The notes under the pieces: generated by a model
Database searches by the model: none
Told to the model about the DNA's origin: nothing
Seen by the model: the letters and a program-made list of their open reading frames with translations, nothing else
In this document: piece after piece, positions 7,750-53,492 of the stretch
Numbering within the stretch: the stretch's first letter is position 1
How the letters are laid out: every line of letters begins with the position of its first letter
Assembly (NCBI RefSeq): GCF_004340785.1
Contig: NZ_SLXS01000001.1
Location: forward strand, 558,001 to 622,000
Origin: Tumebacillus sp. BK434
Lineage (GTDB): Bacteria; Bacillota; Bacilli; Tumebacillales; Tumebacillaceae
Length of the DNA: 64,000 nucleotides
Reading direction: 5' to 3'
Made by a program: the position numbers and the translations under genes

Positions 7750-7877
7750 TGACACGCTGCCCGTTTCCGCAGGAGACGGCAAAGAAGGATCTGCGTCCAT
7801 CTGAACCGATGCTGGGGTTGGCACAAGACCCGGAGCAGCGTCTGCCATGACGAGCTTTTCCAGGAGGAGGAAACGAT

Positions 7878-10800
7878 ATGGAACACACATTGCAAACATT
7901 GCCGTTGGTACAAGTGCCGTCCGATTTGCCGCGAGGAGGCGCACACACCTCAGCCGACTTTACGCTCAAGCTTTCTTCCGCCTTGCAACAGGAACTGAAG
8001 ACGTTTGCCGAAGCAGCCGGACTGTCCGAACTGCGCATCTTGCTCACGGTGTTTCAAATGCTGATTCACCGCTATACGGGCGAGGAGGAGATCGCCGTTC
8101 TCGCCCGCGGCGCTGAGAACGGAGTGACCGCGCTGGCCGGCGGCGTCTCGGCCGGGTCGACGCTTGGGGAAATGTTGCAGGCGGGGCGGTTGCACGAGAT
8201 GGAACTGTCCACAGAGTCCGCGCCGCCGATGCTGCTCGAGTTCACGGAGGGACAGGTGACGTGGACGTATGACGGCGCCCGCTATTCGCAGGAACTGATC
8301 GCGCGTATGGGCGGGCACTTCCTGCAGCTGCTGCAAGGCGCGCTGCAGGAGCCGGAGACGTTTGTGTGCCGCCTGCCGCTCTTGACCGCACAGGAGGAGC
8401 GCGAACTGACGGCCGACGAAAGCCCGTTGACCGGCGGGGACGCGGCGCTTTTGCACCTGCAGGTGGAAGCGCAGGCGCAGCGCTTTCCGGACAAGGTCGC
8501 GCTGGAGTTCCAAGGCAGCACGATGACGTACCGGGAGCTCAGCGAGCGCAGCAACCGGCTGGCGCACTATCTGCAGACGCTCGGCGTCGGGCCGGATGTG
8601 CTGGTCGGACTCTGTCTGGAACGCTCCCTCGACGTTGTCGTGGCGGTGCTCGGGATCTTGAAAGCGGGCGGGGCCTATGTGCCGCTCGACCCGAAACTGC
8701 CGCAGGAGCGCATTCGCTTCATGCTGGAAGATGCGGCGGCGAACGTGCTGGTCACGCGAAACAGCCTGCTGGCGCTCTTGCCGGAGACAGACAGCCGGGC
8801 GGTTGCGCTTGACGGTGATGCGGAGAAGATCGCCATAATGCCATCGACGCTGCCGGAGCGCGGCGCAGCAGGGCACCATCTGGCCTACTTGATCTACACG
8901 TCCGGCTCAACGGGCAAGCCGAAAGCGGTGATGGTCGAGCACCAGAACGTCATCTCGACGCTGGATGCGGCGATCGCGACGTTTGGCTATACACCGGATG
9001 ATGTGATGCCGTTCATCGCGTCGCTGGCGTTTGACGTGTCCGTGTTTGAAATGTTCAACCCGCTGATCACCGGCGGCAAGACTGTGATCCTGACGCAGGA
9101 AGAAGTGCTCGATTTCCCGCGCCTGATCGAGAAGCTGAAAGGCTACACCATCCTGCATACCGTGCCAAGCGTCATGCGCCAGATCTGCGACACGATCCTC
9201 GAACAGGGCGAACCGTCCGGCGAGTATCGCTCGATGCGGGTCCTGCTCGTCGGCGGCGATGTGGTGCCGCCCGACCTGTTGGAGCGCATGCATGCCGCGT
9301 TTCCCATGGCGAACGTGCATGTGATGTACGGTCCGACGGAAGGGGCGATCATCTGCTCGACCCACCCGGTCCGGCGCGGCGCGAAGCCGGACGGCTACCC
9401 GATCGGCACGCGGCTGACCAACGCCTGGCTGCGCATCTATGACGGGCAGAGGAATCTGTTGCCGCTTGGCATGCCGGGTGAGCTGTACATCGGCGGCCAC
9501 GGCGTAACGCGGGGCTATCGCGGCCGGGACGACCTCACCGCCGATAAATTCGTCGAGTTGGACGGCGTGCGCTGGTACCGCACGGGCGACCTGGTGCGCC
9601 GGATGGCCGACGGGACGATCGACTTCCTCGGCCGGATCGACAATCAGGTCAAGATCCGCGGCTTCCGCATCGAGATCGGAGAGATCGAAACGCAGCTCGC
9701 CGCACTTGAAGGGATCGCAGAGACGCTGGTCATGGCCCGCGACGATGCGGCCGGAGAGAAGCAACTGGTCGCCTATGTGGTGACCCATTCCGGCGCGCCG
9801 ATCCCGACGGCGGTGCTGCGCGAACATCTGCAGACGTCCTTGCCATACTATATGGTGCCTTCCGCCTTCGTCTTTCTTGAACGATTCCCGCTCAACGCCA
9901 ACGCAAAGATCGACCGCAAGCAGCTGCCCGATCCGGTCTGGATCTCCGAAGAGCCGTACGAAGCGGCCCGCAACGAGACGGAAGCGCTGTTGTGCAGCGT
10001 GTATTCCGAAGTGCTGCGCAGCGGGCGGATCGGGATTCACGACTCGTTCTTCGACCTCGGCGGCAACTCGCTGCTGGCGACACAGGTCATCTCCCGCGTT
10101 CGCCGCAGCTGCGGTGTCGAGCTGCAGCAGCAGCACGTGCTGGACGCGCCGACGGTGGCCGGGCTGGCCGAGACGGTGCAAAGCCTGCAGGACAGCGGGG
10201 CCGGGCTGAAGTTCCCGCCGATCGAACGGATGGCAAGGGGTGGCGCGTTGCCGCTGTCGTACGCCCAGCAGCGGATGTGGTTTTTGGATGAGATGGGCGG
10301 CGCAAGCGGGCTGTACAACGTGGCGTACGCGCTGCGGCTGAAAGGCGTGCCGGAGTTTACGGCGCTCCGCATGAGCCTGGCGACGGTGATCGCAAGGCAC
10401 GAACCGCTGCGCACCACCTATCAGGAGATCGAGGGCGTGCTGCAGCAGGTGATCGATCCGTGGGAGCGCTCCGAGCGCTTTGCCGTCGACATCCGCTTGC
10501 GGGGGGCTGCCGACTATCCGGCGGACGTGATGAAGTTTCTGACGGAGGAAGCACAGCGTCCGTTCGACTTGCAAACGGACCTCGCCCTGCGCGCCGTGTA
10601 TGTGGAGGTGGCGGAGGAAGAGTCGCTTTTGCTGCTGACCATGCCGCACATCGCGGCGGACGGCTGGTCGATGGGTGTGATCCTCGAAGAGTTCGCCGAG
10701 TCTTACGCCCATTTCCTGAACGGCGATACCCGGTCACATCAGCATGACATCGAGTATGTTGACTTCGCCGCTTGGCAGCGCGAATTTTTGCAAGGCGGCG

Positions 10801-13800
10801 TGATGGACGAGCAGCTCGCGTACTGGAAGCAAAAATTGCAAGGTGCGCCCGCCCTGCTCGAACTGCCGCTCGACAAGCCCCGTCCGGCTGTGCAGAGCCA
10901 TCGCGGCGCGGTGGAGTTCCTGCACCTCGAGGCGGAGCTGACCGCCAGGCTGGAAGCTCTGGCGCGCCAAGCCAACGCCACGTTGTATATGGTGCTGCTC
11001 GCGGCGTTCCAGACGCTCCTGTACCGCTACACGGGGCAGACCGATCTGCCCGTCGGCTCGCCGATCGCGGGCCGCCACTATCCGGGCGTGGAAAAGCTGG
11101 TCGGGCTGTTTGTCAACACGCTGGTCATGCGCGGCGACGTGTCGGGTGATCCGACCGCTTTTGAGCTGTTGTCGCGCGTGCGGGCGACGACGATGGAAGC
11201 GTACCAGCATCAGGATCTGCCGTTCGACAAGCTGGTCGAAGAGCTGCAGCCGGAGCGGGATCTGAGCTACCTGCCCTTGTGCCAGACGTTTTTTGCGCTG
11301 CAAAACATGCCGATGGCCGAGTTTTCCGCCCCGCGATTGACAGCAAGCCCGTTCGATCTGGAGCTGAGCGTCGCCAAATTCGACCTTGCCGTGGTCATGG
11401 AAGAGCGTCAGGGCGGGCTGATGGCACGATTCGAGTATGCGACCGATCTGTTTGATGCAAAGACGATCTGCCGGATGAAAGGTCACTTCGCCGAGCTGCT
11501 CCGCGGGATCGCCGCAGCGCCGGAGCGCCGCGTGTCGGAGCTGCCGATGCTGTCGCCGGCGGAACGGGCAGAACTACTGGCAGGAGAAGCGGAGTTTGCC
11601 GCGCCGGAGCATTGCGTATATCAGCTGTTCGAAGCGCAGGCGGAGCGGACGCCGGATGCTGTGGCGCTGCAGCTGGCAGGTGACACGATGAGCTACCGCG
11701 AGCTGAACGCGCGGGCGAACCGCTTGGCCCATCATCTGCTGGAGCTAGGCGTCACGGCCGAAACGCGGGTCGGCGTGTTCCTGCAGCGGTCGCCGGACGT
11801 TGCTGTCGCGCTGCTTGCGGTGCACAAGGCGGGCGGCGCGTATGTGCCGTTTGACCCGAAGCATCCGCAGGAGCGCATTCAATTCATGCTCGAAGACGCT
11901 GCAGCGCCGGTGGTGATCACGCAAGAAACGCTGGCCGGCCGACTCCCGCAGACAGATGCACATCTGGTGCGGATCGACCGGGACTGGAGCTGCATTTCCG
12001 CGCAGCCGGACCACAATCCGGAAGTTGAGACCGGGGGAGAGCAGCTCGCTTATCTCCTGTACACCTCCGGTTCGACCGGCCGTCCGAAAGCGGTGATGGT
12101 CGAGCACCGCAATCTGGCCTCGACGCTTATGGCGAGCGTGGAGGAGTTCGGCTTCCGGGCGGGCGATGTGATGCCTTGGACCGCATCGGTCGCGTTTGAC
12201 ATCGCGCAGTTTGAGCTGTTTTGCCCGCTGCTCGTCGGCGGCACGGCGGTGATTCTGCCGGAAGAGGTCTTGCTTGATTTCCCGCGCTTGGCCGATGAGG
12301 TGCAGCGCTGCACGGCGATGTTTGCCGTGCCGAGCCTGATGCGCCAGCTCGCGTTGTCGATGCGCGAAGAAGGGCGCGACCCGGCCGACTACGCCAAAAT
12401 GCGCCTGTTGTTCTGCGGCGGCGATGCGGTGTATGCAGATCTGCTGGCGATGCTGCACGAGTCCTTCCCGCAGGCGGATGCGTACGTGCTGTACGGGCCG
12501 ACCGAAGGCACGATCCTCTGCACGCAGTACCTCGCGCCGCGCGAAGCGCTGCCGGAGCGGGCGATGCTCGGCACGAACTTGAAAAACGCCAACATCCGTC
12601 TCTGCGACCCGCATGGCAACCTCGTTCCCACCGGCGTGCCGGGCGAACTGGTGCTGGGCGGAGCAGGCGTCGCGCGCGGCTATCAGGGGCAGGAGGCGCT
12701 GACCTCCGAAAAATTTGTAACGATGGACGGGACGCGCTGGTACCGCACCGGCGACGCGGTGCGCCGGCTCGCCGACGGGACGCTGGAGTTCCTCGGGCGT
12801 CTCGACAACCAGGTGAAGATCCGCGGCTTCCGCATCGAGATCGGCGAGATCGAAGCGGCGCTGGCCCGCCACGAGGCGGTCGGGGAAGCGGCGGTGATCG
12901 TCCGCGAAGACGCGCCGGGCGACAAGCGCCTGGCCGCTTATGTGGTTGGCCGCGATGAGGTGACGGCCGACGAGCTGCGCCGCCATTTGCAAGCGACGCT
13001 GCCGGAGTATATGGTGCCGTCCGGGTTCGTCTTCCTCGATGCCTTCCCGCTCAACCCGAACGGTAAGATCGACCGGAACAACCTGCCGCGCCCCGCGGAA
13101 GAGGACAGCGAGCACACGGCAGGAGTACAGGCGCGGACGCAAGAGGAAGAGCTGATCGGCGGCGTGTTTGCGCAAGTGCTCGACTTGCCGGGCGTCGGCC
13201 GCGACGACCATTTCTTTGCCCTCGGCGGCCACTCGCTGCTGGCGACACAGGCGGTATCCCGACTGCGCAAGCTGTTTGGCGTCGAGTTGCCGGTCAAAGC
13301 GCTGTTCCAAGCGCCGACGGTCGCCCAGATGGCGGTGGAGATCAAGCGCCTCGGACGCGGTGCGGATCTGCCGCCGATCACCCGCGCTGCGAGGGACGCA
13401 GCGCTGCCCTTGTCGTTCAACCAGCGCCGCTTGTGGTTCATCGAGCAGGTGCAGAACAGCGACGGGCTGTACCACATCCCGCTCCTGATCCGCATGCAAG
13501 GCGAGTTGGATCGTGCAGCTTTGCAGCACAGTTTGCAAAAGTTGGTGCGGCGCCATGAAGCGCTGCGCACCGTGTTTGTGGAAGTCGACGGCGAGCCGAT
13601 GCAGCAGGTGCTCGCCGATCTGGAGCTCCCGCTGCAGATCCACGGTGGCGTGGCGGAAGCGGAGTTGCTGCCGCTCGTCCGCGCAGAAGCCAAACTGCCG
13701 TTCGATCTCGTCCACGGCCCGCTGGTGCGCGCCGATCTCTATGAACGGCAAGACGGGGAGCAGTACCTGCTGCTCAATCTGCATCACATCATCGCCGACG

Positions 13801-14744
13801 GTTGGTCGGTCGAGTTTTTCATGCAGGAGCTGGCCGAAGTGTACACGGCGCACCTTGAGCACCGGGTACCGCAACTGCCTGAGGTGACGCTCGGCTTCGC
13901 CGACGTGGCCAAGTGGGAGCAGGACGCGTTGCAAGGCGACGTGTTGGAGCAAAAATGGGCGTACTGGAAACAAAAGCTGGCGGGTCACCTCGCCCCGCTC
14001 GACCTGCCGACCGACCGACCGCGACCGGAAGGGCAGACGCACGTCGGCGCACAGCACAAGCGCTGGTTGCCGGCCGAATTAGTGCCGCCGCTGCAGGAGT
14101 TGGCCCGACGGGAGGGGGTGTCGCTGTACATGCTCCTGCTCGCCGCTTTCAACGTCTTGCTGTTCCGCACGACCGGGCAGACCGACATCGCAGTCGGCTC
14201 GCCGAGCGCCGGACGCGAGCGGGCGGAAGTGGAGCGCGTGTTTGGCTTCTTCGTCAACACGCTGGTGCTGCGCAGCGATCTGTCGGGCAGCCCGCTGTTC
14301 ACCGAGCTGATGCACCGCGTGCGCGAAGTAACGCTCGATGCGCTGGCCCATCAGGAGGTGCCGTTTGAGCGCCTGTTAGAGTTGCAGCCACAGACCGACC
14401 GCCGCTATGCACCGCTGATTCAGGCGATGTTCGTGCTGCAGGATGTAGGCTTCTCGCAGCGGGAATTGCCTGGCATGGTCTGGGAGCTGGTAGAATTTGA
14501 CCTTGGCATCGCCAAGTTCGACCTCACGTTGTACGTGGAAGAGACGGAGGAAGGGCTGAAGGCGATGGCGGAGTACAACACCGATCTGTTCGACGCGGCG
14601 ACGATCGACCGTCTGCTGCAGCAATGGCAAGGCCTGCTGGAAAGCATCGCGGAAGACCCGCGCCGGTCGATCGGCGAGCTCCCGCTGCAAGGCGCGGCCG
14701 AGGTGTCGCTGTCGGAGGATGAGTTTGAGGAGTTGTTTCTGTAA
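7878..14744 (+). CDS. NRPS P2: (shrunken C)-A-T-C-A-T-C
   Basis: 2288 residues; ATG at 7878 follows AGGAGGAGG at 7862-7870. Residues 20-185 resemble only parts of the C-terminal half of a condensation domain (LLTVFQMLIHRYTGEEEIAV, later GGHFLQLLQGAL) and lack HHxxxDG. A1 runs about 190-690 (code DVFHLGMIIK, unassigned) and T1 has its serine near 731. C1 covers about 790-1230; its motif reads PHIAADG, so the first His is Pro but the second, catalytic His remains. A2 covers about 1246-1740 (code DIQFFGLILK, unassigned), with T2 near 1786. An intact C2 (HHIIADG near 1969) ends the protein, followed by the acidic tail SLSEDEFEELFL. A terminal C domain means the bond to the next residue is made by this protein while the next one supplies the A domain. 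No E, MT or TE domain was seen. Confidence 0.93.
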   Translation: MEHTLQTLPLVQVPSDLPRGGAHTSADFTLKLSSALQQELKTFAEAAGLSELRILLTVFQMLIHRYTGEEEIAVLARGAENGVTALAGGVSAGSTLGEMLQAGRLHEMELSTESAPPMLLEFTEGQVTWTYDGARYSQELIARMGGHFLQLLQGALQEPETFVCRLPLLTAQEERELTADESPLTGGDAALLHLQVEAQAQRFPDKVALEFQGSTMTYRELSERSNRLAHYLQTLGVGPDVLVGLCLERSLDVVVAVLGILKAGGAYVPLDPKLPQERIRFMLEDAAANVLVTRNSLLALLPETDSRAVALDGDAEKIAIMPSTLPERGAAGHHLAYLIYTSGSTGKPKAVMVEHQNVISTLDAAIATFGYTPDDVMPFIASLAFDVSVFEMFNPLITGGKTVILTQEEVLDFPRLIEKLKGYTILHTVPSVMRQICDTILEQGEPSGEYRSMRVLLVGGDVVPPDLLERMHAAFPMANVHVMYGPTEGAIICSTHPVRRGAKPDGYPIGTRLTNAWLRIYDGQRNLLPLGMPGELYIGGHGVTRGYRGRDDLTADKFVELDGVRWYRTGDLVRRMADGTIDFLGRIDNQVKIRGFRIEIGEIETQLAALEGIAETLVMARDDAAGEKQLVAYVVTHSGAPIPTAVLREHLQTSLPYYMVPSAFVFLERFPLNANAKIDRKQLPDPVWISEEPYEAARNETEALLCSVYSEVLRSGRIGIHDSFFDLGGNSLLATQVISRVRRSCGVELQQQHVLDAPTVAGLAETVQSLQDSGAGLKFPPIERMARGGALPLSYAQQRMWFLDEMGGASGLYNVAYALRLKGVPEFTALRMSLATVIARHEPLRTTYQEIEGVLQQVIDPWERSERFAVDIRLRGAADYPADVMKFLTEEAQRPFDLQTDLALRAVYVEVAEEESLLLLTMPHIAADGWSMGVILEEFAESYAHFLNGDTRSHQHDIEYVDFAAWQREFLQGGVMDEQLAYWKQKLQGAPALLELPLDKPRPAVQSHRGAVEFLHLEAELTARLEALARQANATLYMVLLAAFQTLLYRYTGQTDLPVGSPIAGRHYPGVEKLVGLFVNTLVMRGDVSGDPTAFELLSRVRATTMEAYQHQDLPFDKLVEELQPERDLSYLPLCQTFFALQNMPMAEFSAPRLTASPFDLELSVAKFDLAVVMEERQGGLMARFEYATDLFDAKTICRMKGHFAELLRGIAAAPERRVSELPMLSPAERAELLAGEAEFAAPEHCVYQLFEAQAERTPDAVALQLAGDTMSYRELNARANRLAHHLLELGVTAETRVGVFLQRSPDVAVALLAVHKAGGAYVPFDPKHPQERIQFMLEDAAAPVVITQETLAGRLPQTDAHLVRIDRDWSCISAQPDHNPEVETGGEQLAYLLYTSGSTGRPKAVMVEHRNLASTLMASVEEFGFRAGDVMPWTASVAFDIAQFELFCPLLVGGTAVILPEEVLLDFPRLADEVQRCTAMFAVPSLMRQLALSMREEGRDPADYAKMRLLFCGGDAVYADLLAMLHESFPQADAYVLYGPTEGTILCTQYLAPREALPERAMLGTNLKNANIRLCDPHGNLVPTGVPGELVLGGAGVARGYQGQEALTSEKFVTMDGTRWYRTGDAVRRLADGTLEFLGRLDNQVKIRGFRIEIGEIEAALARHEAVGEAAVIVREDAPGDKRLAAYVVGRDEVTADELRRHLQATLPEYMVPSGFVFLDAFPLNPNGKIDRNNLPRPAEEDSEHTAGVQARTQEEELIGGVFAQVLDLPGVGRDDHFFALGGHSLLATQAVSRLRKLFGVELPVKALFQAPTVAQMAVEIKRLGRGADLPPITRAARDAALPLSFNQRRLWFIEQVQNSDGLYHIPLLIRMQGELDRAALQHSLQKLVRRHEALRTVFVEVDGEPMQQVLADLELPLQIHGGVAEAELLPLVRAEAKLPFDLVHGPLVRADLYERQDGEQYLLLNLHHIIADGWSVEFFMQELAEVYTAHLEHRVPQLPEVTLGFADVAKWEQDALQGDVLEQKWAYWKQKLAGHLAPLDLPTDRPRPEGQTHVGAQHKRWLPAELVPPLQELARREGVSLYMLLLAAFNVLLFRTTGQTDIAVGSPSAGRERAEVERVFGFFVNTLVLRSDLSGSPLFTELMHRVREVTLDALAHQEVPFERLLELQPQTDRRYAPLIQAMFVLQDVGFSQRELPGMVWELVEFDLGIAKFDLTLYVEETEEGLKAMAEYNTDLFDAATIDRLLQQWQGLLESIAEDPRRSIGELPLQGAAEVSLSEDEFEELFL

Positions 14745-14750
14745 GTCAAT

Positions 14751-14797
14751 CGGTCATGAAGAGGAGCAGCCTGTGAAGGCTGCCCCTTTTATGACCG
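14751..14797 (+). terminator. Long hairpin after P2, possible (partial) terminator
   Basis: Outer arms CGGTCAT (14751-14757) and ATGACCG (14791-14797) enclose the GC-rich arms GCAGCC and GGCTGC. A TTTT follows the inner stem. The 148 AT-rich bases between here and P3 could hold a second promoter, but I could not find a convincing -35/-10 pair. P3 may therefore depend on read-through. Confidence 0.5.
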
Positions 14798-14945
14798 CAG
14801 GTACAATGTATATAAATAAGCGTCACTCATGTTGATTTAAACATTTTTAGCAGGTTTTCTATTAATGCTCGAAGAAGTATTATCGTCGACAAGTACAGTG
14901 AAAAATATACGGAAAATTATCGACATACTTCAAGGAGGCTGTACA

Positions 14946-17900
14946 ATGCCCACCGTTCGTAATCGAGCTGCGAACTTGCCTTATGCTGGAAAAACATATA
15001 TCCTACCCATCCCGAGCGAACTGTCGGCGCACCTGAGCGGACAGAACGGGGCTGCTTATCTGGCGTTGCTGCTGCACCGGTATACGGGTGAAGAGCAGGT
15101 TGAGATCGGCGTGCCAGGCGCTCGTCTGTCCTGGCAGATCGGCGGTGAGATGCCGGTGCGCGACGTGTTAGCATCTGCCAAACTGGCGGCGGATGGCGAC
15201 GACGAGCCTGTGCAGGCACAGTTTGGCTGCTTTGACGATGAAACGGATACAGCGGATCTCGCTTTTTATAGCAACGACGGGGAACTGGTGCTCACGTATA
15301 ACGCAGCGCGGTTTTCTGAACTGGCGGCAGTGCGGATGATGCAGCACTTTGTCGCGCTGGTGCAAGCGGCCGTCTCCGACCCGAAGCGGCAGGTACAACA
15401 CCTGTCCCTGCTGTCGGAGGACGAAAAGCAGCACATACTGACCGCTTGGAACAACACGGCGCTGGACATACCGCCGCTTTGCAACCTGCAGGAGCTGTTC
15501 ACCGAACAGGCCGTGCGTACGCCGGATGCGGTCGCCGCGGTCTGCGCGGGGCATGCGCTGACCTTCGCCGAGCTGAACGCACAGGCCAACCGGCTGGCGC
15601 ATCGCCTGCAGCGACTCGGCATCGGGCCGGAAAAGACGGTCGGCCTTTGTCTGAATACAGGGCTTGGGCTGATCACCGCCCTGCTTGCCGTCTGGAAGGC
15701 GGGCGGCGCGTACGTGCCGGTCGATCCGGCCTATCCGAAGGACCGCAAAGCATTTGTGCTCGCCGATGCGGCCGTCTCCGTCCTGCTCACCGAGAGCAGC
15801 TTGCAAAGCGCGCTGCCGGAGCATGGAGCGCATGAGCTGCACCTCGACCGGCTGGGGGACGAATTGGCGGCCGAATCGGCTGCCGACCCGATCTGTGCCG
15901 CACAGCCGCACCATCTGGCGTATATCATCTACACGTCCGGCTCCACCGGGCGGCCTAAAGGCGTGCTGATCGAACAAGCCGCCTTGTTCCACCATCTCCA
16001 CGCGCTGCACCACGCCATCTATCGCCACCACCCGGCGCGCCCGATGCAAGTGGCGCTGAACTCTTCGGTGGCGTTCGACGCGTCGCTGGCCCAGATCGAG
16101 CTGATGCTGCAGGGGCACACGCTGCACCTGCTGCCCGATGAGGTGCGCCATGATCCGCAGCAGCTCGTGAGCTATGTGCGCGATCATTCGATCGACGTGC
16201 TGGACGGAACACCGTCGCAGATCCGTCTGCTGCTGGCAGCCGGACTGCTGGAAGCGGGACAGCATGCGCCTTCGATCCTGCTGGTCGGCGGGGAAGCGAT
16301 GGACGAAGCGATGTGGGCGGCGTTTGCAGATGCGGACCATACGGTCTGCTACAACGTCTACGGCCCGACAGAAAACACGGTCGACGCTTTGTTCTGCCCG
16401 GTTTCGCACGAGCATGCCGAACCGACGCTCGGACGACCGATCCCCAATGTGCAAGCCTACATTCTCGACAGCGCGCTCAACCCGGTGCCGATCGGAGTGC
16501 CGGGCGAGCTGCACATCGGCGGCAAGGGGCTTGCCCGGGGCTACTTGAACCGCCCCGAACTGACGGCGGAGAAGTTCATCGCGCATCCGTTCTCCGCAGA
16601 AGCGGGCGCGCGCCTCTACAAGACGGGCGACCTGGCCTGCTGGCAGGAAGACGGCACCGTCTCCTTTCTCGGCCGGATCGACGATCAGGTCAAGCTGAAC
16701 GGCTTCCGCATCGAGTTGTCGGAGATCGAAGCGGTCACGGCGCAGCATCCGTCCGTCCGGGACGCGGTGGTGCTGGTGCGCGAAGACGAGCCGGGCTTGA
16801 AGCGTCTCGTCGCGTATGTGACGTCAGACGGGGCGGACCTGAACAGCCGCGGGCTGAAAGCGTATCTGCGCGACCGGCTGCCGAAATACATGGTGCCGTC
16901 CGCCTTCGTGATGCTGGACGCGCTGCCGCTCACCGTGAACGGCAAGCTTGATAAAAAAGCGCTGCCTGCACCCGACTTGACCCTGCTCGCCGACGAGGAG
17001 TTCGTCGCGCCGCGCAATCCGGCCGAAGAGCTGACCGCTGGCATTTTTGCCGAGCTGCTCGGGCTTGCGCATGTCGGCATCCATGACGACTTCTTCGAGC
17101 TCGGCGGCCACTCGCTTTCCGCCGCGCAAGCGGTGTCCCGCCTGCGCAGCGCGTTTGGCGTGGAGCTGTCTGTCCGCGCGCTGTTCGATGCGCCGACCGT
17201 CGCACAGTTGGCTGAGCAGGTGCAAGGGGAGTGGAGCGAAGCGACCCGCCTGCTGCTTCCGCCGCTCACCGCAGCCGAGCGAAGCGGCCCGCTGCCTTTG
17301 TCATTCGCCCAGCAGCGCATGTGGTTCCTCGACCAGCTGGAGCAGAACAGCGCCCTGTACAACATCCCGACGGCGATGCGGCTGACCGGACCGCTCGATG
17401 CGAACATTTTAGAGCAGAGCGTCCACCAGATCGTCGTGCGCCACGAAGGGCTGCGCACGACGTTTCAAATGGCCGGAGCAACACCGGTGCAGCAGATCGC
17501 ACCGCTGCCGTCTGCAGGGATTTTTGCGGTGACCGACCTGAGCGGGTTCACCGGCGACCGGGAAACGGAAGCTGTGCGCACGATCCAGGCGGCGGTCGAA
17601 GCGCCGTTCGATCTGCAACACGGCCCCTTGCTGCGCGTCGTGCTGGTGCGACTGGCGGCCGAAGAGCACCTTTTGCTCGTCAACATTCATCACAGCGTGG
17701 CGGATGGCTGGTCGCTCGGCGTGTTTACCGAAGAGCTGGCCGCGTTTTACAAAGCGTTGGCAACTGGCGGGGAAGCGAACCTGCCGCCCTTGCCCCTCCA
17801 GTACGCCGATTATGCGGTCTGGCAGCGCGAATGGCTGCAAGGAGCTGTGCTCGACGCGCAGATCGGCTACTGGAAACAGCAGCTCGACGGCGCGCCGCCC

Positions 17901-20900
17901 GTGTTCCAGATGCCGACCGACCGTCCCCGGCCGGCCGTGCAGTCCTATCGCGGGGCGACCGAGTGCTTTACCGTACCCCAAGACGTCCTGCAGCGCTTGA
18001 ATGTGCTGTCCAAGCGGGAAGGCGTCTCGCTGTACATGACCTTGCTCGCCGCGTTCCAAGCGCTTCTGTTCCGCTATTCGGGGCAGGATGACATTTCGGT
18101 CGGCTCGCCGGTCGCGGGACGCCACCGCGGGGAGATCGAAGAGCTGATCGGCTTTTTCGTCAACACCTTGGTCATGCGTACCCAACTGTCGGGCGATCTG
18201 TCGTTTGCACAGCTGCTGCAGCAGGTGCGCGAGGTGGCCTTGAACGCGTTTGCCCATCAGGATGTGCCGTTCGACAAGCTGGTCGAAGAGCTGGCCCCGG
18301 AGCGAGATCTGAGCTACTCGCCGCTGTTTCAAGTGCTGTTCGTGCTGCAAAACGCGAAGTACGAGACGGTACAGTTCCCCGGTCTTCAAACTGAGGAATT
18401 TTTCGTCGACAGCGGCACGGCCAAATTTGACCTGACCCTGCAGATGCAGGAGGAGGCGAACGGACTTGTCGCCACGCTGGAATACAGCACCGACCTGTAT
18501 GACTCGGCGACGATCAGGCGCATGGTCGTCCATTTCCAAAATCTGTTGGGGTCGATCGTGCTCATGCCTGAGCAAAAGATCGGCAAACTGCCGATGCTGA
18601 CGGCGGCGGAGGAGCACCAACTGCTCGTCGAGTGGAACGACACGGCGATGCCCTATCCGCAGGACAAATGCATCCATCAGCTGTTCGAAGCGTGCGCAGC
18701 GAAGACGCCTGAAGAGACGGCGCTGATCTTCCGCGACCAGACGATGTCCTACCGCGAGCTGAACGAGCGCTCCAACCAATTGGCCCATCATCTGCAAGGG
18801 CTCGGCGTGGGTCCGGAGACGATCGTTGGCATCTGTCTGGAGCGCTCGCTCGAGATGGTGGTCGGGCTGCTCGGCATCTTGAAGGCCGGCGGGGCGTTTG
18901 TCGCCCTCGACCCGGCGTATCCGAAAGACCGCCTCGCCTTGATCCTGGAGGACACGGCGATTCCGTTTGTCGTGACCCAGTCCACCGTGCAGGATGTGCT
19001 TCCGCCGCATGATGGCCGGCTGATCTTGCTCGATCAGCACCGCGCGCTGCTCGATGCGGAGCGCACCGCCAACCCGGACAGCGGAGTTGGCCCGGACAAT
19101 CTGATCTATCTGATCTACACGTCCGGCTCGACCGGCCGCCCGAAAGCGATCGCGATGCGCCATCAGCCGCTGACAAACATGACATGGTGGCAGATCGGGG
19201 CATTTATCGATCCGGGTCCGGCCCGCGTGCTGCAGTTCGCGTCGCTCAACTTCGACGTGTCCTACCAGGAGCTGTTCACGACGTTCTATCTCGGCGGCAC
19301 GGTGATCATCCCTGACGAGGAGACGCGCCGCGATTCGTACCAACTGCTGAACCTGATCGTCGAGCAGAAGATCGAGCGGATCTTCCTGCCGTTCATCCTG
19401 CTCACCCAGCTGGCTGAAGTCGGGGAGAGCGGCGGCCCGCTGCCGCATGACCTCAAGGAGATTATCACAGCCGGCGAACAGCTGCAGATGACCGCTCACA
19501 TCGTCTCTTGGCTGCGCAAGCTCGGCTGCCCGCTGCACAACCAGTATGGCCCGTCAGAAGCGCACGTCGTCACCTATCTCACCTTGACCGGTGATCCGGG
19601 CACGTGGCCGGCCTTGCCGCCGGTCGGCAAGCCGCTTGGCAACACGCAGATCTACGTGCTCGATCCCTATATGCGCCCGGTGCCGGTCGGCGTCGGCGGT
19701 GAAGTGTACGTCGGCGGCGACTGCCTCGCGCGCGGCTATCTCAACCGCGAGGAGCTGACCGCCGAGAAGTTCATCCCCGATCCGTTTTCCGGCCGCCCTG
19801 GCGCCCGCCTGTACCAGACGGGAGACATCGCGCGCTGGCTGCCGGACGGCAACCTCGAATACATGGGCCGCGCCGACGATCAGGTCAAAATCCGCGGCTT
19901 CCGCGTCGAACCGGGTGAGATCACGGCGGTGCTCGGCAAGCATCCCGACTTGAAAGAAGTGGCGGTGTTGGCCCGTGAGGACCAGCCGGGCAACAAGCGC
20001 CTCGTCGCTTATGTTGTGCCGCAGGAGCCCGACCGGGCGCCGACGATCGCCGAGATGTCAGCGTACATCCTCGAGACGCTGCCGAAGCACATGGTGCCGT
20101 CCGCTTTCGTGGTGATGGAAAAATTGCCCCTGACCCACAACGGCAAGCTGGAGCGGAAAGCTCTGCCCGTCCCGGAGCAGGTGCGCTCGGGACTCGACGC
20201 CGACTATAAAGCGCCGCGCACGCCGGTCGAAGAGATCGTCACCGGCATGTGGGCGCAAGTGCTGGGCTTTGAACAGGTCGGGATCGACGACAATTTCTTT
20301 GAACTCGGCGGGCATTCGCTATTGGCGACGCAAGTCGTCACGCGCATGCGCAACACCTTCAAGATCGATCTGCCCGTCCGTACGATCTTCCAGACTCCGA
20401 CCGTGGCCCAACTCGCCGAGAAGATCGAAGAGCTCGCGCGCGGCGGGGAAAAAGAGCTCCCTCCGCTGACGAAAGTCTCCCGCGACGGCGCTCTCGCCTT
20501 GTCGTATGCGCAGCAGCGGATGTGGTTTTTCGACCAGTTGGCGGAAGAAGGGGCGCTGTACAACGTCCCGACGGCGCTTCAGCTGTCCGGCACACTGCAC
20601 GTCGAAGCCATGCGATCGAGCCTTAACGAGATCGTGGCACGCCACGAATCTCTGCGCACGACCTTCCGGGAAGTGGACGGCCAGCCGGTGCAGGTGATTC
20701 ATCCGCCGCACGAGGCGCTTTTTGTCATCGAAGATCTGACGGGGCTGGGCAGCGGAGCGGAGGGTGAGGCTCTGCAGCGGGCGATAGCGGCGGCTGCGCT
20801 GCCGTTTGACTTGGAACGCGGCCCGGTGCTCCGGGTGCACGTGTACCGCACGGCACAGACGGAGCATCTGCTGCTGCTGAACATGCACCACATCGTGTCG

Positions 20901-21845
20901 GACGGCTGGTCGATCGGCGTCTTCCTGAACGAGCTGGCCGCGCTGTACGAAGCGCGTCTCAACGGGGACAAGTCGCCGCTGCCAGAGCCGGGACTGCAAT
21001 ACGCCGACTTCGCGGCGTGGCAGCGCAGCTGGCTGCGAGGCGACGTGCTGGAAGAGCAGATGAAATTCTGGCGCCAACAGCTGCAAGGGCCGCTGCCTGT
21101 GCTCGAGCTGCCGGCCGATTTCCCGCGCCAGGCATCGCCGACGTACAGCGGGCTGACCCGATCGCTGGTGCTGCCAGACGCGCTGCACGAAGCGCTGAAC
21201 GAGTTGGCGCAGCGCGAAGGTCTGTCCCTGTATATGCTGCTGCTCGCAGCATACAAGACGCTCTTGCACCGCCTGACAGGACAGCACGATCTGCTGGTCG
21301 GCTCGCCGATCGCCGGACGCAACCGGGAAGAGATCGAGCCGATGATCGGCTTCTTCGTGAACACGCTGGTCGTGCGCACGAGCCTTGCCGATAACCCGAC
21401 GTTTGCCGAAGTGGCGCAGAAGGTGCGGGATACAGCCCTGGAAGCGTATGCCTACCAGGACGTGCCGTTCGACAAGCTGGTCGAACTGCATCCAGACCGC
21501 GACCCGCGCTTCTCGCCTTTGTTCCAGACGATGTTCGTCCTGCAAAACACGCCGGCGCAAGTGACCGAACTGCCGGACTTGACGATGCGGCGGGTGACGC
21601 TCGACAACGACGTCGCCAAGTTCGACCTCACGTTGTACATGGAAGAAAAGGCGGACGGGCTGACGGCAGAACTGGAGTACAACACCGATCTGTTCGCAGA
21701 AGGCACGATTGTGCGCCTGCTCAAGCAGTGGCAGACGCTTTTGGAAGGCATCGTGGAAGATCCGCACCAGCGCATTCTGGCGCTGCCGCTCACCGCGGGC
21801 GACGAGATGCTGGATGAAGAAGAACTGGATGAGCTGTTCATTTAA
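14946..21845 (+). CDS. NRPS P3: (shrunken C)-A-T-C-A(Pro)-T-C
   Basis: 2299 residues from ATG 14946, chosen because AAGGAGG lies at 14932-14938; an in-frame ATG at 14865 has no such site. Residues 10-165 are a reduced condensation-like segment without HHxxxDG (GAAYLALLLHRYTGEEQVEI, then TYNAARFSELAAVRMMQHF). A1 covers about 170-675; its code reads DAADLGVVDK, nearest the remembered Glu/Gln codes (DAKDLGVVDK, DAQDLGVVDK). T1 lies near 720 and C1 has HHSVADG near 915. A2 covers about 1232-1745; its code reads DVQFIAQVVK, one or two positions from the remembered proline code, with the typical LPF and ITAGEQL stretches. T2 lies near 1790. The terminal C2 is intact (HHIVSDG near 1981) and is followed by the acidic tail DEEELDELFI. 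The build is the same as P2, so the two proteins probably arose by duplication or share a docking logic. Confidence 0.93.
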   Translation: MPTVRNRAANLPYAGKTYILPIPSELSAHLSGQNGAAYLALLLHRYTGEEQVEIGVPGARLSWQIGGEMPVRDVLASAKLAADGDDEPVQAQFGCFDDETDTADLAFYSNDGELVLTYNAARFSELAAVRMMQHFVALVQAAVSDPKRQVQHLSLLSEDEKQHILTAWNNTALDIPPLCNLQELFTEQAVRTPDAVAAVCAGHALTFAELNAQANRLAHRLQRLGIGPEKTVGLCLNTGLGLITALLAVWKAGGAYVPVDPAYPKDRKAFVLADAAVSVLLTESSLQSALPEHGAHELHLDRLGDELAAESAADPICAAQPHHLAYIIYTSGSTGRPKGVLIEQAALFHHLHALHHAIYRHHPARPMQVALNSSVAFDASLAQIELMLQGHTLHLLPDEVRHDPQQLVSYVRDHSIDVLDGTPSQIRLLLAAGLLEAGQHAPSILLVGGEAMDEAMWAAFADADHTVCYNVYGPTENTVDALFCPVSHEHAEPTLGRPIPNVQAYILDSALNPVPIGVPGELHIGGKGLARGYLNRPELTAEKFIAHPFSAEAGARLYKTGDLACWQEDGTVSFLGRIDDQVKLNGFRIELSEIEAVTAQHPSVRDAVVLVREDEPGLKRLVAYVTSDGADLNSRGLKAYLRDRLPKYMVPSAFVMLDALPLTVNGKLDKKALPAPDLTLLADEEFVAPRNPAEELTAGIFAELLGLAHVGIHDDFFELGGHSLSAAQAVSRLRSAFGVELSVRALFDAPTVAQLAEQVQGEWSEATRLLLPPLTAAERSGPLPLSFAQQRMWFLDQLEQNSALYNIPTAMRLTGPLDANILEQSVHQIVVRHEGLRTTFQMAGATPVQQIAPLPSAGIFAVTDLSGFTGDRETEAVRTIQAAVEAPFDLQHGPLLRVVLVRLAAEEHLLLVNIHHSVADGWSLGVFTEELAAFYKALATGGEANLPPLPLQYADYAVWQREWLQGAVLDAQIGYWKQQLDGAPPVFQMPTDRPRPAVQSYRGATECFTVPQDVLQRLNVLSKREGVSLYMTLLAAFQALLFRYSGQDDISVGSPVAGRHRGEIEELIGFFVNTLVMRTQLSGDLSFAQLLQQVREVALNAFAHQDVPFDKLVEELAPERDLSYSPLFQVLFVLQNAKYETVQFPGLQTEEFFVDSGTAKFDLTLQMQEEANGLVATLEYSTDLYDSATIRRMVVHFQNLLGSIVLMPEQKIGKLPMLTAAEEHQLLVEWNDTAMPYPQDKCIHQLFEACAAKTPEETALIFRDQTMSYRELNERSNQLAHHLQGLGVGPETIVGICLERSLEMVVGLLGILKAGGAFVALDPAYPKDRLALILEDTAIPFVVTQSTVQDVLPPHDGRLILLDQHRALLDAERTANPDSGVGPDNLIYLIYTSGSTGRPKAIAMRHQPLTNMTWWQIGAFIDPGPARVLQFASLNFDVSYQELFTTFYLGGTVIIPDEETRRDSYQLLNLIVEQKIERIFLPFILLTQLAEVGESGGPLPHDLKEIITAGEQLQMTAHIVSWLRKLGCPLHNQYGPSEAHVVTYLTLTGDPGTWPALPPVGKPLGNTQIYVLDPYMRPVPVGVGGEVYVGGDCLARGYLNREELTAEKFIPDPFSGRPGARLYQTGDIARWLPDGNLEYMGRADDQVKIRGFRVEPGEITAVLGKHPDLKEVAVLAREDQPGNKRLVAYVVPQEPDRAPTIAEMSAYILETLPKHMVPSAFVVMEKLPLTHNGKLERKALPVPEQVRSGLDADYKAPRTPVEEIVTGMWAQVLGFEQVGIDDNFFELGGHSLLATQVVTRMRNTFKIDLPVRTIFQTPTVAQLAEKIEELARGGEKELPPLTKVSRDGALALSYAQQRMWFFDQLAEEGALYNVPTALQLSGTLHVEAMRSSLNEIVARHESLRTTFREVDGQPVQVIHPPHEALFVIEDLTGLGSGAEGEALQRAIAAAALPFDLERGPVLRVHVYRTAQTEHLLLLNMHHIVSDGWSIGVFLNELAALYEARLNGDKSPLPEPGLQYADFAAWQRSWLRGDVLEEQMKFWRQQLQGPLPVLELPADFPRQASPTYSGLTRSLVLPDALHEALNELAQREGLSLYMLLLAAYKTLLHRLTGQHDLLVGSPIAGRNREEIEPMIGFFVNTLVVRTSLADNPTFAEVAQKVRDTALEAYAYQDVPFDKLVELHPDRDPRFSPLFQTMFVLQNTPAQVTELPDLTMRRVTLDNDVAKFDLTLYMEEKADGLTAELEYNTDLFAEGTIVRLLKQWQTLLEGIVEDPHQRILALPLTAGDEMLDEEELDELFI

Positions 21846-21862
21846 TAGAAGGGGGTTTCCCG

Positions 21863-24800
21863 GTGAACTATTTGTCAAAGGAAAACGTACAAGAAGTCCT
21901 CGACCTGTCGCTGTTGCAGACCAAGATCTACAGCCAAGAGAACCCGGAGCAGGCTGAGCTGCACATCGCGCAAGTTCGACTGCAGCTCAGCGGCGCCCTC
22001 GATCCTGCGAAGTTCGCGGCGGCCGTACAGCACGTGATCGCACAAAATCCGCTCCTGCGCACCGTGTTTCGCCCGGTGCGCGGGCGCGTGGTGCAGGTGC
22101 TATTGAAAAACCGCCCGATCGACGTGGCGGTGCTCGACCTGACCGGACAGGACGCAGTTGCGCAAGCGGCCGCGCTGGATCAGGCGGCGCGGGAAGCGCG
22201 CGCGCCGTTCCACCTCAACGAAGGCCCGCTCCTGCGGGTGAGCCTCGTCGTGCTCGATGCCGAACGCGCCGTCGCGCTCTGGACGCATCACGGCATGATC
22301 CTCGACGAGACGAGCCGCCGTTTGCTGCAAGCCGAACTGCTCACCGCGTATGACGCGCTTGTGAGCGGAACAGCCTTGCCGACGGCGAACCGGTCCTCTT
22401 TTAAAGACTACCTCAACTGGCTGAACGCGCAGGACCGCTCGGCGGCCCGCGAATTCTGGTCGCAGCATCTCGCCGGGTTCGAAGCGGCGACGCCGCTGCT
22501 CAACCAGCGCGAAGGAGACGGGGAGCCTGGCGTCCGCGCGCGCGCGTTCTCTGCGGAGCTGTCCCGCGCCTTGGAAGCGCTGGCACAGGCGCAAGGCGTG
22601 AAAGCGGAAACGCTGGTGCAGGCGGCTTGGGCGTTTTTGCTCAACTTGTACTCCCGTGAAGACGCGGTGACGTTTGGCGCCGGGTTTACCGGGCGTCCGG
22701 CGACCTTGTCCGGCGCAGAGGCGATGGTCGGGCGTTTCGCGAACACCTTGCCGCTGCATCTGGCGGTTGACGGGGAAACGGAGGTTGCGGAGTTCTTGCG
22801 GCAACTGGACGGGCTGACTGCGACGATGGAAAGCTTTGCGGTGATTCCGCTGGCAGAAGTGCGCAACTATGCCGGGCTTGGCGAGCAGCAGGAGCTGTTC
22901 ACCAGCGCGGTCAACGTCTACGCAGGCGCAGCGTCTGCTGCCGGCGTCCTGCGCACGGAGCTGGCAGCGAAGCAGGAAGGGGCAGGCCTTGCGCTGGCGC
23001 TCGATGTGGAGACGGGCGAGACATGGATCGCGCGCGCCGCGTTCTCGGGTGACCGCTTGTCGGGGGAGACGGCCGAAGCGCTGCTCACTCATCTGGAGAC
23101 GGTGCTGGCAAGCATGACCCTGCTGCCGCACGCGCGCATCCGCGAGCTGAACGTCTTGCCTTCCACTGAGCGCGAACCGCTGTTTGGCGCGTTTACGGCG
23201 ACCCGACTGCAAGCGTATCCGCTCGACCGCCTGGCGCATCAGGTGATCGAAGACCAAGTGGCGAAGACGCCGGAGCAGATCGCGGCGATTTTTGAAGGTG
23301 CACAGATCACCTATGCCGAGCTGAACGCACGCGCGAACCGCCTGGCGCATTTCCTGCGCGAAAACGGGTTTGGCCGCGATGACCTGGCCGCTCTGTTCGC
23401 TGAGCGCGGCATCGACATGCTGACGGCGATCGTCGCCGTGATGAAAGCGGGCGGGGCGTATGTGCCGCTCGACTCGGCGCACCCGGATGCGCGCCTGTCC
23501 ACGATCATCGAGACGGCAGGCGCCAAAGTCATCCTGACGCAAGGCCCGCTCTTGGAGCGCAGCCGTGGGCTGTCCGACCAGGCGCTGGTCTTCTCGCTGG
23601 ATGAGCTGGACGGGCTGGCGAACTACCCGGATGTGAATCTGGAATTCGTTAACGTTCCGCATGACCTCGCCAACGTCTTCTTCACCTCCGGCTCGACCGG
23701 TCTGCCGAAAGGGGCGATGGTCGAACACGTCGGCATGCTCAACCACCTGTACGCTAAGATCGACCTGCTGGAGTTGACTTCGTCCTCGATCGTCGTGCAA
23801 AACGCGTCGCACTGCTTTGACATCTCCGTCTGGCAGTTCCTCGCCCCGCTGATGGTCGGCGGCACGGTCGTCATCTACGGCAACGACATCGCGATGGACC
23901 CGAACGCGCTGCTCGCATCGGTCCAGCGCGACAACGTCACGATCCTCGAGATGGTGCCGGCGGTGATCGAAATGTTCCTGCAGGCGGTCGCCGAACATGC
24001 AGAAGCGGCGGCGTTGCCGGAACTGCGCTACATGCTGTCGACCGGGGAAGGCTTGCGCAGCGGCCTCTGCGAGCGCTGGCTGGAAGCGTACCCGCATGTC
24101 AAAGCGGTCAACACGTACGGCGCGACCGAATGCTCGGACGACACCTCGCACAAAGTCGTGACTGCCGCGAACCGCGACGAGTGGGACCTCGACCGCGACT
24201 TCGTGACGCTGGGCACCCCGATCCCGAATTTTAACGTCTATGTGCTCGACAAGTGGAACCGTCCCGTGCCGATCGGCTGCACCGGCGAGATCTGCATGAC
24301 CGGCGTCGGCGTAGGGCGCGGCTATCTGAACGACCCGGAGCGCACGGCGCAGGCGTTTGTGCCGAATCCGTTTGACGACGGCCGGGGCGAACGCATGTAC
24401 AAAACGGGCGACCTCGGGCGCTTCCTGCCGGACGGGCGGCTGGAGTTTGTCTCCCGCGCCGACTTCCAAGTCAAAGTCCGCGGCCACCGCATCGAGCTCG
24501 GCGAGGTGGAAGCGGCGATCCTGAGCCACCCGTCCGCGGAGCAGACGATCGCCATCGTCCGCCCGGACAGCGCGGGCCAGAACCGCATCCTCGCCTATGT
24601 CATCGTCTCGGAAGCGGTCGACATGGACGCGTGGCGAGAGTACCTGCATGACCGCCTGCCGGAATACATGATCCCGGAGCACATTCTGACGCTGGACAGC
24701 TTCCCGCTCAACCGCAACGGCAAAATCGACCGCAAAGCGCTGCCGGAGCCGGAAGCGGCCGAGCGCGGCGCACACGCTTTTGCCGCGCCGCGCAATGAGC

Positions 24801-52856: not shown

Positions 52857-53492
52857 TTAACCGCGTCCGCCGGAGCCGGAGCGATTGCCGGAGCCAGACC
52901 GATTGCGGCGGCGTCTGCCAGAGCCGGAGCGATTGCCGGAGCCAGACCGATTGCGGCGGCGTCTGCTGGAGCCGGAGCGATTGCCGGAGCCAGACCGGTT
53001 ACGCCGTCTGCCGGAGCCGGAGCGATTGCCGGAGCCAGACCGGTTACGCCGTCTGCCGGAACCAGAGCGATTACCGGAACCAGAGCGATTACCGGAGCCA
53101 GAGCGATTGCCGGAACCGGAGCGATTGCCGGAGCCGGAGCGATTGCCGGAACCGGAGCGGTTGCCGGAACCGGAGCGGTTGCCGGAACCGGAGCGATTGC
53201 CGGAACCGGAGCGATTGCCGGAACCGGAGCGGTTGCCGGAACCGGAGCGGTTGCCGGAACCGGAGCGGTTGCCGGAACCGGAGCGGTTGCCGGAACCGGA
53301 GCGGTTGCCGGAACCGGAGCGATTGCCGGAGCCGGAGCGGTTGCCGGAGCCGGAGCGGTTGCCGGAGCCTTCCAGGGAGACGGTCACCAGATCATGATCG
53401 ACCGGGTCATTCCGTAAAAAGTCTTCGGAGCTGTTCATCTCACATGCAAGGTTGACAAGTCCTGCGATCTCCGTTTTGCTCAGTCTTTTCAA
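52857..53492 (-). CDS. GSGNRS-repeat protein, putative CotG-like spore coat protein and CotH substrate
   Basis: 211 residues. A unique N-terminal part (about 1-41, [29 protein letters not shown]) is followed by some twenty tandem copies of GSGNRS, later mixed with RRRNRSGSG variants, to the stop. The start is TTG at 53492, preceded by GGGGTGAT on the minus strand; no ATG is available. The opposite strand is also open through the repeat, but only this frame has a non-repetitive head and a start facing the divergent cotH gene. Serine- and arginine-rich repeat proteins next to CotH (CotG, CotB) are known as targets of the CotH coat kinase, which is why I propose a coat role. The function is inferred from composition and position, not from homology. 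Confidence 0.7.
52862..53370. repeat. Tandem 18-bp repeat encoding GSGNRS
   Basis: The unit is about GAGCGGTTGCCGGAACCG on the plus strand, with scattered third-position changes (gcgatt/gcggtt, ggagcc/ggaacc) and 30-to-60-bp longer variants at the left end. The array is direct, without spacers, and stays in frame. Such an array should expand and contract between strains. Confidence 0.95.

Follow-up and report, generated by a model that had tools for sequence, protein, structure and literature searches.

Background

COM domains are scaffolds between the epimerization (E) and condensation (C) domains of nonribosomal peptide synthetases (NRPSs), and their co-occurrence with E domains is described as strict (PMC12402864). 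In TycA/TycB, SrfA-B/SrfA-C and the cis-COM of BacC, the acceptor surface is part of the N-lobe of the C domain that follows, at an N-terminus, and the donor is an amphipathic C-terminal segment, short and with hydrophobic spacing (PMC9113145, PMC12402864). Inactive C domains are also on record. ThdA of the thermoactinoamide system of Thermoactinomyces carries a truncated, probably inactive N-terminal C domain (C*) before its starter adenylation (A) domain, which its authors suggest influences the A domain (PMC7253712); the inactive C1 domain of VibF is retained for dimerization (cited in PMC8795117), and the X domain of glycopeptide NRPSs is an inactive C-fold kept for contacts (PMC1894796; PDB 4tx2, 4tx3). 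In type S NRPSs, engineers split the C-A linker and employ synthetic zippers (PMC8362031). In the sections covered, the review PMC9113145 names no docking type for a C-to-A junction. Here we describe such junctions among four NRPS proteins, P1 to P4, encoded in a 64,000-nucleotide stretch of Tumebacillus sp. BK434 (assembly GCF_004340785.1, contig NZ_SLXS01000001.1, forward-strand positions 558,001 to 622,000; hereafter the window, with positions counted from its first letter).

The locus resembles each of these systems in part. At the P3-P4 junction, the predicted acceptor belongs to the N-lobe of the C domain that opens P4 and the candidate donor is a short C-terminal stretch, as in COM docking, whereas the upstream domain is a C rather than an E domain, the acceptor is dead, the finger is basic and the tail acidic, and the tail has no seam or lid. 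The C* of ThdA sits on a first module, while that of P3 opens an internal subunit whose predecessor ends in a C domain; likewise, P2 is internal in Tumebacillus avium and comes first only in a third species of the genus. With VibF C1 and the X domain, the locus shares a C-fold without condensation activity that would be retained for protein contacts, but those domains contact themselves or oxygenases, and the dead domain of this locus stands at the start of a subunit, opposite a C domain that has been relocated. As in type S NRPSs, the cut falls between C and A, and the upstream protein has a C domain as its last domain; the cut in the window is natural and accompanied by an acidic tail and a dead or miniature C domain. 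We therefore take the arrangement to be a new variant of NRPS subunit junctions. A preliminary description of this DNA had not recognised it as a described class. For the pairing of a relocated terminal C with a kept remnant, no description was recognised in literature word searches, but the truncated C that precedes the A domain of a starter module has been published (ThdA, PMC7253712).

We propose that NRPS modules were cut here between C and A, so that the catalytic C of the downstream protein's first module stands at the C-terminus of the upstream protein, and that the former N-terminal C of the downstream protein was retained without catalysis in one of two states, full length or miniature. 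In the clade of P4, the catalytic histidine was lost and the thumb, palm and finger surface of a COM-type docking hand kept, with a finger that turned basic and onto which the DELF-like tail of the upstream protein may dock. In P2 and P3, in-frame deletions would have shrunk the domain to a miniature C-lobe that may act as a structural platform of the A domain, and the protein that fed P2 has been deleted from the window genome. We regard this account as a whole, with C|A-split junctions and dead or shrunken N-terminal C domains kept as docking hand or A platform, as fairly probable. Whether such naturally split C|A modules possess a docking code of their own, in which a dead C serves as a charge-inverted COM acceptor for the acidic tail behind a relocated active C, with no E domain, and is pared to a C-lobe platform for A elsewhere in the same lines, is in our judgement evenly balanced.

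Complete C domains and acidic tails at subunit ends

All four proteins are encoded on the forward strand. P2 (7878..14744) and P3 (open reading frame (ORF) 14865..21845) both read remnant-A-PCP-C-A-PCP-C, where PCP is a peptidyl carrier protein, with an acidic tail at the end; the true start of P3 is most likely 14946, downstream of AAGGAGG, rather than 14865. Against a C-domain hidden Markov model (HMM) built in this analysis, the terminal C domain of P2 (13398..14702, motif LHHIIADGWS) spans positions 2-443 of 448 and that of P3 (20490..21806, MHHIVSDGWS) positions 3-443, with scores of 563 and 625. Being full length and carrying HHxxxDG, both are by sequence probably active condensation domains. 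They are followed by acidic tails ending SEDEFEELFL (14703..14741) and LDEEELDELFI (21807..21842). P3 thus ends in a C and not in an E domain, E-type ends scoring about 110-146, and the nearest neighbours of its terminal C are its own orthologue and then the P2 terminal and P3 internal C domains. The C domain that P3 and P4 lack at their beginnings stands at the end of the protein before them. Its use in trans is our inference, in which the terminal C of P3 would condense the last carrier of P3 with the first of P4.

Tails were surveyed with the pattern [DE]xLF near the protein end in 154 NRPS ORFs, after exclusion of 20 of 174 whose stop codon fell outside the stretch analysed. The pattern was found on 28 of the 55 ORFs ending in a C-family domain, E-type ends included, and on none of the 99 others, so that a generic protein ending was rejected as an account of the tail. 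An NRPS gene lay close downstream (at most 1.5 kb away, on the same strand and within the stretches analysed) of 20 of the 28 tail-bearing ORFs and of none of the other eight. In all 20, the partner opened with a degenerate N-terminal C domain, either dead and full-length (13) or a C-lobe remnant (7), and the seven remnants each faced an acidic tail of net charge -4 to -7. The pattern missed five subunits of genus group g27 that end in NELFS and precede 680-residue proteins opening with an intact C domain.

Tail and partner change together. We compared two other genomes of the genus, one of them T. avium AR23208 (NZ_CP021434.1) and the other the third species. Tails before P4 share EEELDELFI, on P3 in two species and on P2 in the third, and P2 tails before P3 read EDEFEELFL and DDEFDELFM. 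In the third species, P3 has been lost and P4 directly follows P2, which now carries a P3-type tail (EEELDELFI) on a terminal C that still groups with those of P2. The hydrophobic and acidic spacing of the tails is LDELF-like and would fit a COM donor helix. The tails appear to resemble the C-terminal helix of tyrocidine synthetase 1.

The state of the terminal C domain also matches what comes after it. Seventeen terminal C domains form a clade of their own (support 1.0): the 11 followed by another NRPS gene keep HHxxxDG, and in the six that have no NRPS gene close downstream the catalytic histidine is gone.

A dead C domain with a putative docking hand

P4 (21863..29029) opens with a full-length C domain (21863..23182) in which the second, catalytic histidine is glycine and the DG is DE (HHGMILDE, motif at about 22286-22309); its orthologues read HHNMILDE and YHNMILDE. 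The domain is therefore full length but dead, and P4, which begins inside the span of the preliminary description but was not listed there, belongs to the pattern: P2 and P3 lost half of their N-terminal C, and P4 only its active site. Its pN/pS, the ratio of the proportions of nonsynonymous to synonymous differences, is moderately high (0.31, against 0.12-0.23).

When 398 genomes of the class were searched with this domain, 16 genomes among the matches listed scored above 350 bits, the next match scoring 290.6. Thirteen of the 16 were examined (G185, G302 and G231 were left out): six from the family of the window, with three in its own genus (T. avium among them) and three in a second one, two from genus group g95 (family f33) and five from g27 (family f26), in all four genera of three families. 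In a tree from which domains spanning fewer than 320 of the 448 model positions or scoring below 90 bits were excluded, the 13 N-terminal C domains form one clade with support 1.0. All 13 lack the catalytic histidine, with G, N, D, E, A, P or T at the position of the second histidine, and none would be expected to be an active condensation domain. In the next larger clade (support 0.92), seven of the eight other members keep HHxxxDG and o128 does not. In all 13 cases, the protein preceding the dead domain carries a C domain with HHxxxDG and ends in an acidic DELF-like tail. In G212 (L107, C1:1357169-1364323), the first A domain of the dead-C subunit contains an in-frame stop.

Conservation, computed on seven of the 13 sequences as representatives, peaks in P4 residues 1-20 (21863..21922; 0.77) and 64-88 (22052..22126; 0.74) against a mean of 0.54. 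Fewer than 1% of equal-length windows reach such conservation, compared with 11% for the former catalytic stretch. In sequence alignment, P4 pairs from residue 1 with SrfA-C (2vsq 1-343) and from residue 2 with TycB1 (9bfd_B 2-346), and residues 64-88 align to the palm and finger stretch of BacC (S5148, E5150, E5152, D5155 and V5160, matched by letters, as named in PMC12402864). Residues 1-20 would form the thumb-like N-terminal piece and residues 64-88 the palm strands and finger turn, so that by sequence the N-terminal C of P4 has the thumb, palm and finger of a COM acceptor. A beta-hairpin docking domain recognising a short linear motif was looked for as well; P4 has no separate small N-terminal domain, its C match beginning at residue 10.

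The charges of finger and tail are opposite. The finger carries +3 in P4 and +3 to +4 in all 13 members of the dead clade, and the partner tails carry -3 to -8. Six intact relatives have fingers of -2 to +2, and three E-type tails preceding such domains range from -1 to +5. In the window genome, P4 alone reaches a finger charge of at least +2 among 160 C domains scored in the stretches analysed. From their place after E-type ends (o499/o489, s238/s239), the intact relatives would be of the D-C-L type. On these alignments and charges, the dead P4 domain appears to have lost its chemistry and retained a COM-type docking hand of reversed charge. A docking role for it is well supported, though not proven.

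Shrunken C segments before the A domains of P2 and P3

The shrunken C segments of P2 (7878..8450) and of P3 (14946..15482, from the revised start) cover only parts of a C domain. The best PF00668 match at the P2 start covers profile positions 204-274 plus one further stretch, and that at the P3 start 405-456. With our own HMM, the 180 residues at the P2 start match model positions 204-273 and 396-447 with the part between missing, and the P3 start matches 380-448 only; from the revised start, P3 runs straight into C-lobe sequence. The region of HHxxxDG is uncovered in the best PF00668 matches to both. This agrees with the earlier reading of these starts as the C-terminal half of a C domain without HHxxxDG. 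What did not hold was that only scattered parts were matched, for structure prediction, carried out on the P2 segment, returned one compact C-lobe.

AlphaFold with a 15-row alignment gave for the P2 segment a miniature C-lobe without N-lobe (predicted local distance difference test (pLDDT) 84.1, predicted template modelling score (pTM) 0.82). Foldseek with this model retrieved C-domain proteins, topped by 6p4u (E 2.5e-9), and VIA-align superposed it on 5u89_A (182 residues, Z 16.8, 2.8 Å) and on residues 200-459 of SrfA-C (2vsq; Z 16.0, 3.4 Å); against TycC6 (2jgp), 162 residues aligned with Z 16.6 at 2.7 Å. A full C fold in this segment, which had been named as the outcome that would overturn the preliminary description, was rejected, the predicted model fitting the C-lobe only. 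A model of the segment together with its A domain (pLDDT 83.1, pTM 0.77) superposes as a single piece on known C-A pairs: 9be3_A (580 aligned, 2.3 Å), 6p1j_A (584, 2.5 Å) and 2vsq (SrfA-C; 584, 2.8 Å). Because AlphaFold was trained on such C-A structures, the superposition indicates compatibility and not proof. From these models, we read C* as the portion of the C domain on which A domains lean, a platform that would have remained after catalysis moved upstream.

Both segments are kept in frame in relatives, as had been supposed: the P2 segment has orthologues with 62% identity in T. avium and 51% in the third species, and the P3 segment one with 57% in T. avium. A sequencing error or frameshift masking an N-lobe was ruled out, since the orthologues share the truncation and the P2 segment has no indel over 186 codons in either species pair; the P3 alignment has one gap. 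Between the window and T. avium, pN/pS was 0.53 for the P2 and 0.52 for the P3 segment, whereas the remaining domains of the two proteins gave 0.11-0.29. Within the P2 segment, it fell from 0.79 in the middle to 0.33 in the final 53 residues, which adjoin the A domain and come close in constraint to other domains at 0.19-0.29. Against the third species, the P2 segment gave 0.49 and the A and C domains 0.27-0.44. C* is thus under relaxed yet real constraint, greatest at its A-facing end. The proposed role as A-domain support is supported by the predicted fold, the C-A placement and the constraint on the last 53 residues. For the other proposed role, as a docking module, the shrunken pieces give no support, since they lack the N-lobe with the known COM hand.

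The P1-P2 junction

The first A-PCP unit of P2 (8451..10223) has no complete C domain directly ahead of it, neither in P2 nor at the end of P1. P1 (1246..7749) was rejected as the supplier of this domain: by Pfam and the domain table, its C-terminal end holds no C domain and consists of a PCP and a basic tail. In T. avium, which retains all five genes, an extra gene with an open frame, q7, lies between P1 and P2 and ends in a C domain and DMIDELF. The 128 bases between P1 and P2 (7750-7877) align with the end of q7 and include GACGAGCTTTTC (DELF) at 7849-7860, outside any gene; a non-coding scar of the end of a terminal C and its tail occupies 7754..7860 on the forward strand. The P1-P2 step thus lacks a C domain because the intervening gene was deleted in the window. 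The preliminary expectation that each downstream C would sit at the end of the upstream protein was accurate for P2 to P3 and P3 to P4, but not for P2's own C, whose carrier q7 is gone. In q7 (L074, L084), which itself opens without a complete C domain, the N-terminus looks by sequence like an internally deleted ketosynthase joined to a C-lobe that has been shortened, which suggests that inactive N-terminal domains in this genus shrink via in-frame deletions. In the third species, P1 (a pseudogene) and q7 are reduced to traces before P2, with SILDELF beside stops.

Occurrence in other genomes

A profile of the miniature C-lobe matched in at least 118 of the 398 genomes, though most of the strong matches listed have the span of an ordinary C-lobe. 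Of 20 short-span matches chosen by eye among those listed, 17, under several family labels, are N-terminal C-lobe remnants before an A domain, and three (L112, L118, L123) lie in intact C domains. Some of the 17 look like first genes of a line, as ThdA does, and others repeat the window-type junction.

Several further layouts were seen. Single genes of other families carry a miniature C-lobe and then an A domain (1254-amino-acid ORFs L119, L120 and L124, from several genomes of one genus label), and L115, L121 and L122 (747-854 amino acids) stop at the A domain. In G003, G004 and G006 (L111, L114, L133), a subunit of about 1,103 residues combines a degenerate C, an A reduced to C-terminal pieces and an intact C with tail, in effect a vestigial module. 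In all five g27 genomes examined (G249, G275, G311, G346 and G213; L125-L132, L144), a protein of about 680 residues, comprising an intact C, a miniature C-lobe and a tail and in which no A domain was found, directly precedes the dead-C subunit.

Alternative explanations

Several observations weigh against the proposed C|A-split account. The [DE]xLF pattern was chosen after the tails had been viewed, and the tails have no seam or lid part, no counterpart of the TPSDFP stretch at the ends of E domains being seen in them. Only four genus groups contribute the 13 dead C domains, so these are not 13 independent events. In o139, o145, o397 and the q53 family, which have no close downstream NRPS gene, DDLF- or IDLF-like tails follow C domains without the catalytic histidine, so that the tail can persist once that function is gone or have another use. 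The five g27 genomes have an extra C between two subunits, with the tail after the miniature C-lobe, which the simple scheme leaves unexplained, and G249, G275, G311 and G346 contain a plain C|A split without remnant, one subunit ending in an ordinary C-A linker and the next starting with A. The four proteins contain no C domain dedicated to the P1-P2 step. In the comparison with the third species, pN/pS is higher for a 75-residue PCP stretch of P2 (0.65) than for C* (0.49). C* evolves almost neutrally in its middle, part of which may therefore simply be decaying. Since C* lacks the docking hand, one docking model fails to cover both junction types.

In one rival reading, the shrunken segments are functionless leftovers on their way out, present because an ORF must start somewhere. 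Their faster evolution (pN/pS about 0.5, 0.8 in the middle), the shrunken ketosynthase and shortened C-lobe of q7 in T. avium, as if N-terminal domains erode by in-frame deletion, and the whole-gene losses in the cluster are what such erosion would leave. But pN/pS stays below 1, 186 codons of the P2 segment show no indel in two species pairs, the predicted fold is compact, and remnants precede A domains in 17 of the 20 picked loci under several family labels, and we consider the idea unlikely, though it deserves to be kept in view. In another, the whole cluster is in decay, and its terminal C domains act in release or are relics and carry out no condensation. The P1-P2 step without a C domain, the deletion of q7, the P1 pseudogene of the third species and the six members of the 17-member clade that lost the catalytic histidine in the absence of a close downstream NRPS gene would all fit. 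This reading is nevertheless quite improbable given that P2, P3 and P4 are intact ORFs under purifying selection, that P4 ends in a thioesterase domain (PF00975), and that all 11 members of that clade followed by another NRPS gene keep HHxxxDG.

Two other readings give the parts different tasks. The miniature C-lobe might itself dock the upstream acidic tail, for all seven remnants directly after a tail-bearing subunit face tails of net -4 to -7, and the P3 N-terminus is basic and partly conserved across two species; the thumb, palm and finger of COM acceptors are absent from it, however, and C* also occurs in genes, such as the q53 family, that had no visible NRPS partner upstream within the stretches analysed, which makes such docking doubtful. 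Under circular use, the C domain at the end of P2 or P3 would act on the module that opens the same protein, and the first module of P2 would thereby gain the C domain missing from it in the window. It would, on the other hand, leave P3-P4 without catalysis, since the P4 C is dead; in the third species, where P2 stands directly before P4 and P1 is a pseudogene, only a linear reading completes the line, and the same applies at the step from miniature C to dead C in G003, G004 and G006. We hold circular use to be highly improbable.

If the C|A-split account is true, a dead C domain that keeps a COM-like surface opposite a C domain and its acidic tail would directly test the strict co-occurrence of COM with E domains stated in PMC12402864, and would constitute an exception to that rule and a re-use of the docking interface. 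It would also be a natural counterpart of the zipper-joined C|A cut of engineers (PMC8362031), offering a simple pair of tail and hand with a clear charge signature. For product prediction it carries a warning, as modules of such clusters are misassigned when N-terminal C domains are simply counted.

Other features of the locus and its genome

The window genome (4.65 Mb) is rich in NRPSs, with 164 C pieces above 25 bits in the stretches analysed. P1 reads, by Pfam and the domain table, as a fatty acyl-AMP ligase (FAAL)-like acyl-AMP ligase followed by acyl carrier protein (ACP), C, A and PCP and the basic C-terminal tail; the top NCBIfam matches to its first 700 residues are mostly fatty-acid--AMP ligase models, all under their cut-offs. 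A luciferase-like monooxygenase (PF00296, residues 1420-1733) is inserted in its A domain. In the internal C domain of P2 (about 10245-11579), the first histidine of HHxxxDG is proline in the window (MPHIAADGWS) and in T. avium, and histidine in the third species. Four NRPSs of G000 (C1:625067-631471, C1:642893-655642, C2:339820-344451 and C5:201687-208826) end in C domains whose catalytic histidine is lost (HP, YQ, HA), with DDLF/IDLF-like tails; they have no NRPS gene close downstream, and it is their clade in which the 11 members followed by one keep HHxxxDG. Elsewhere in the window, two reverse-strand ORFs, 52857-53438 and 57046-58269, are highly repetitive, with SGSGNR and SDEV/DDDS repeats.

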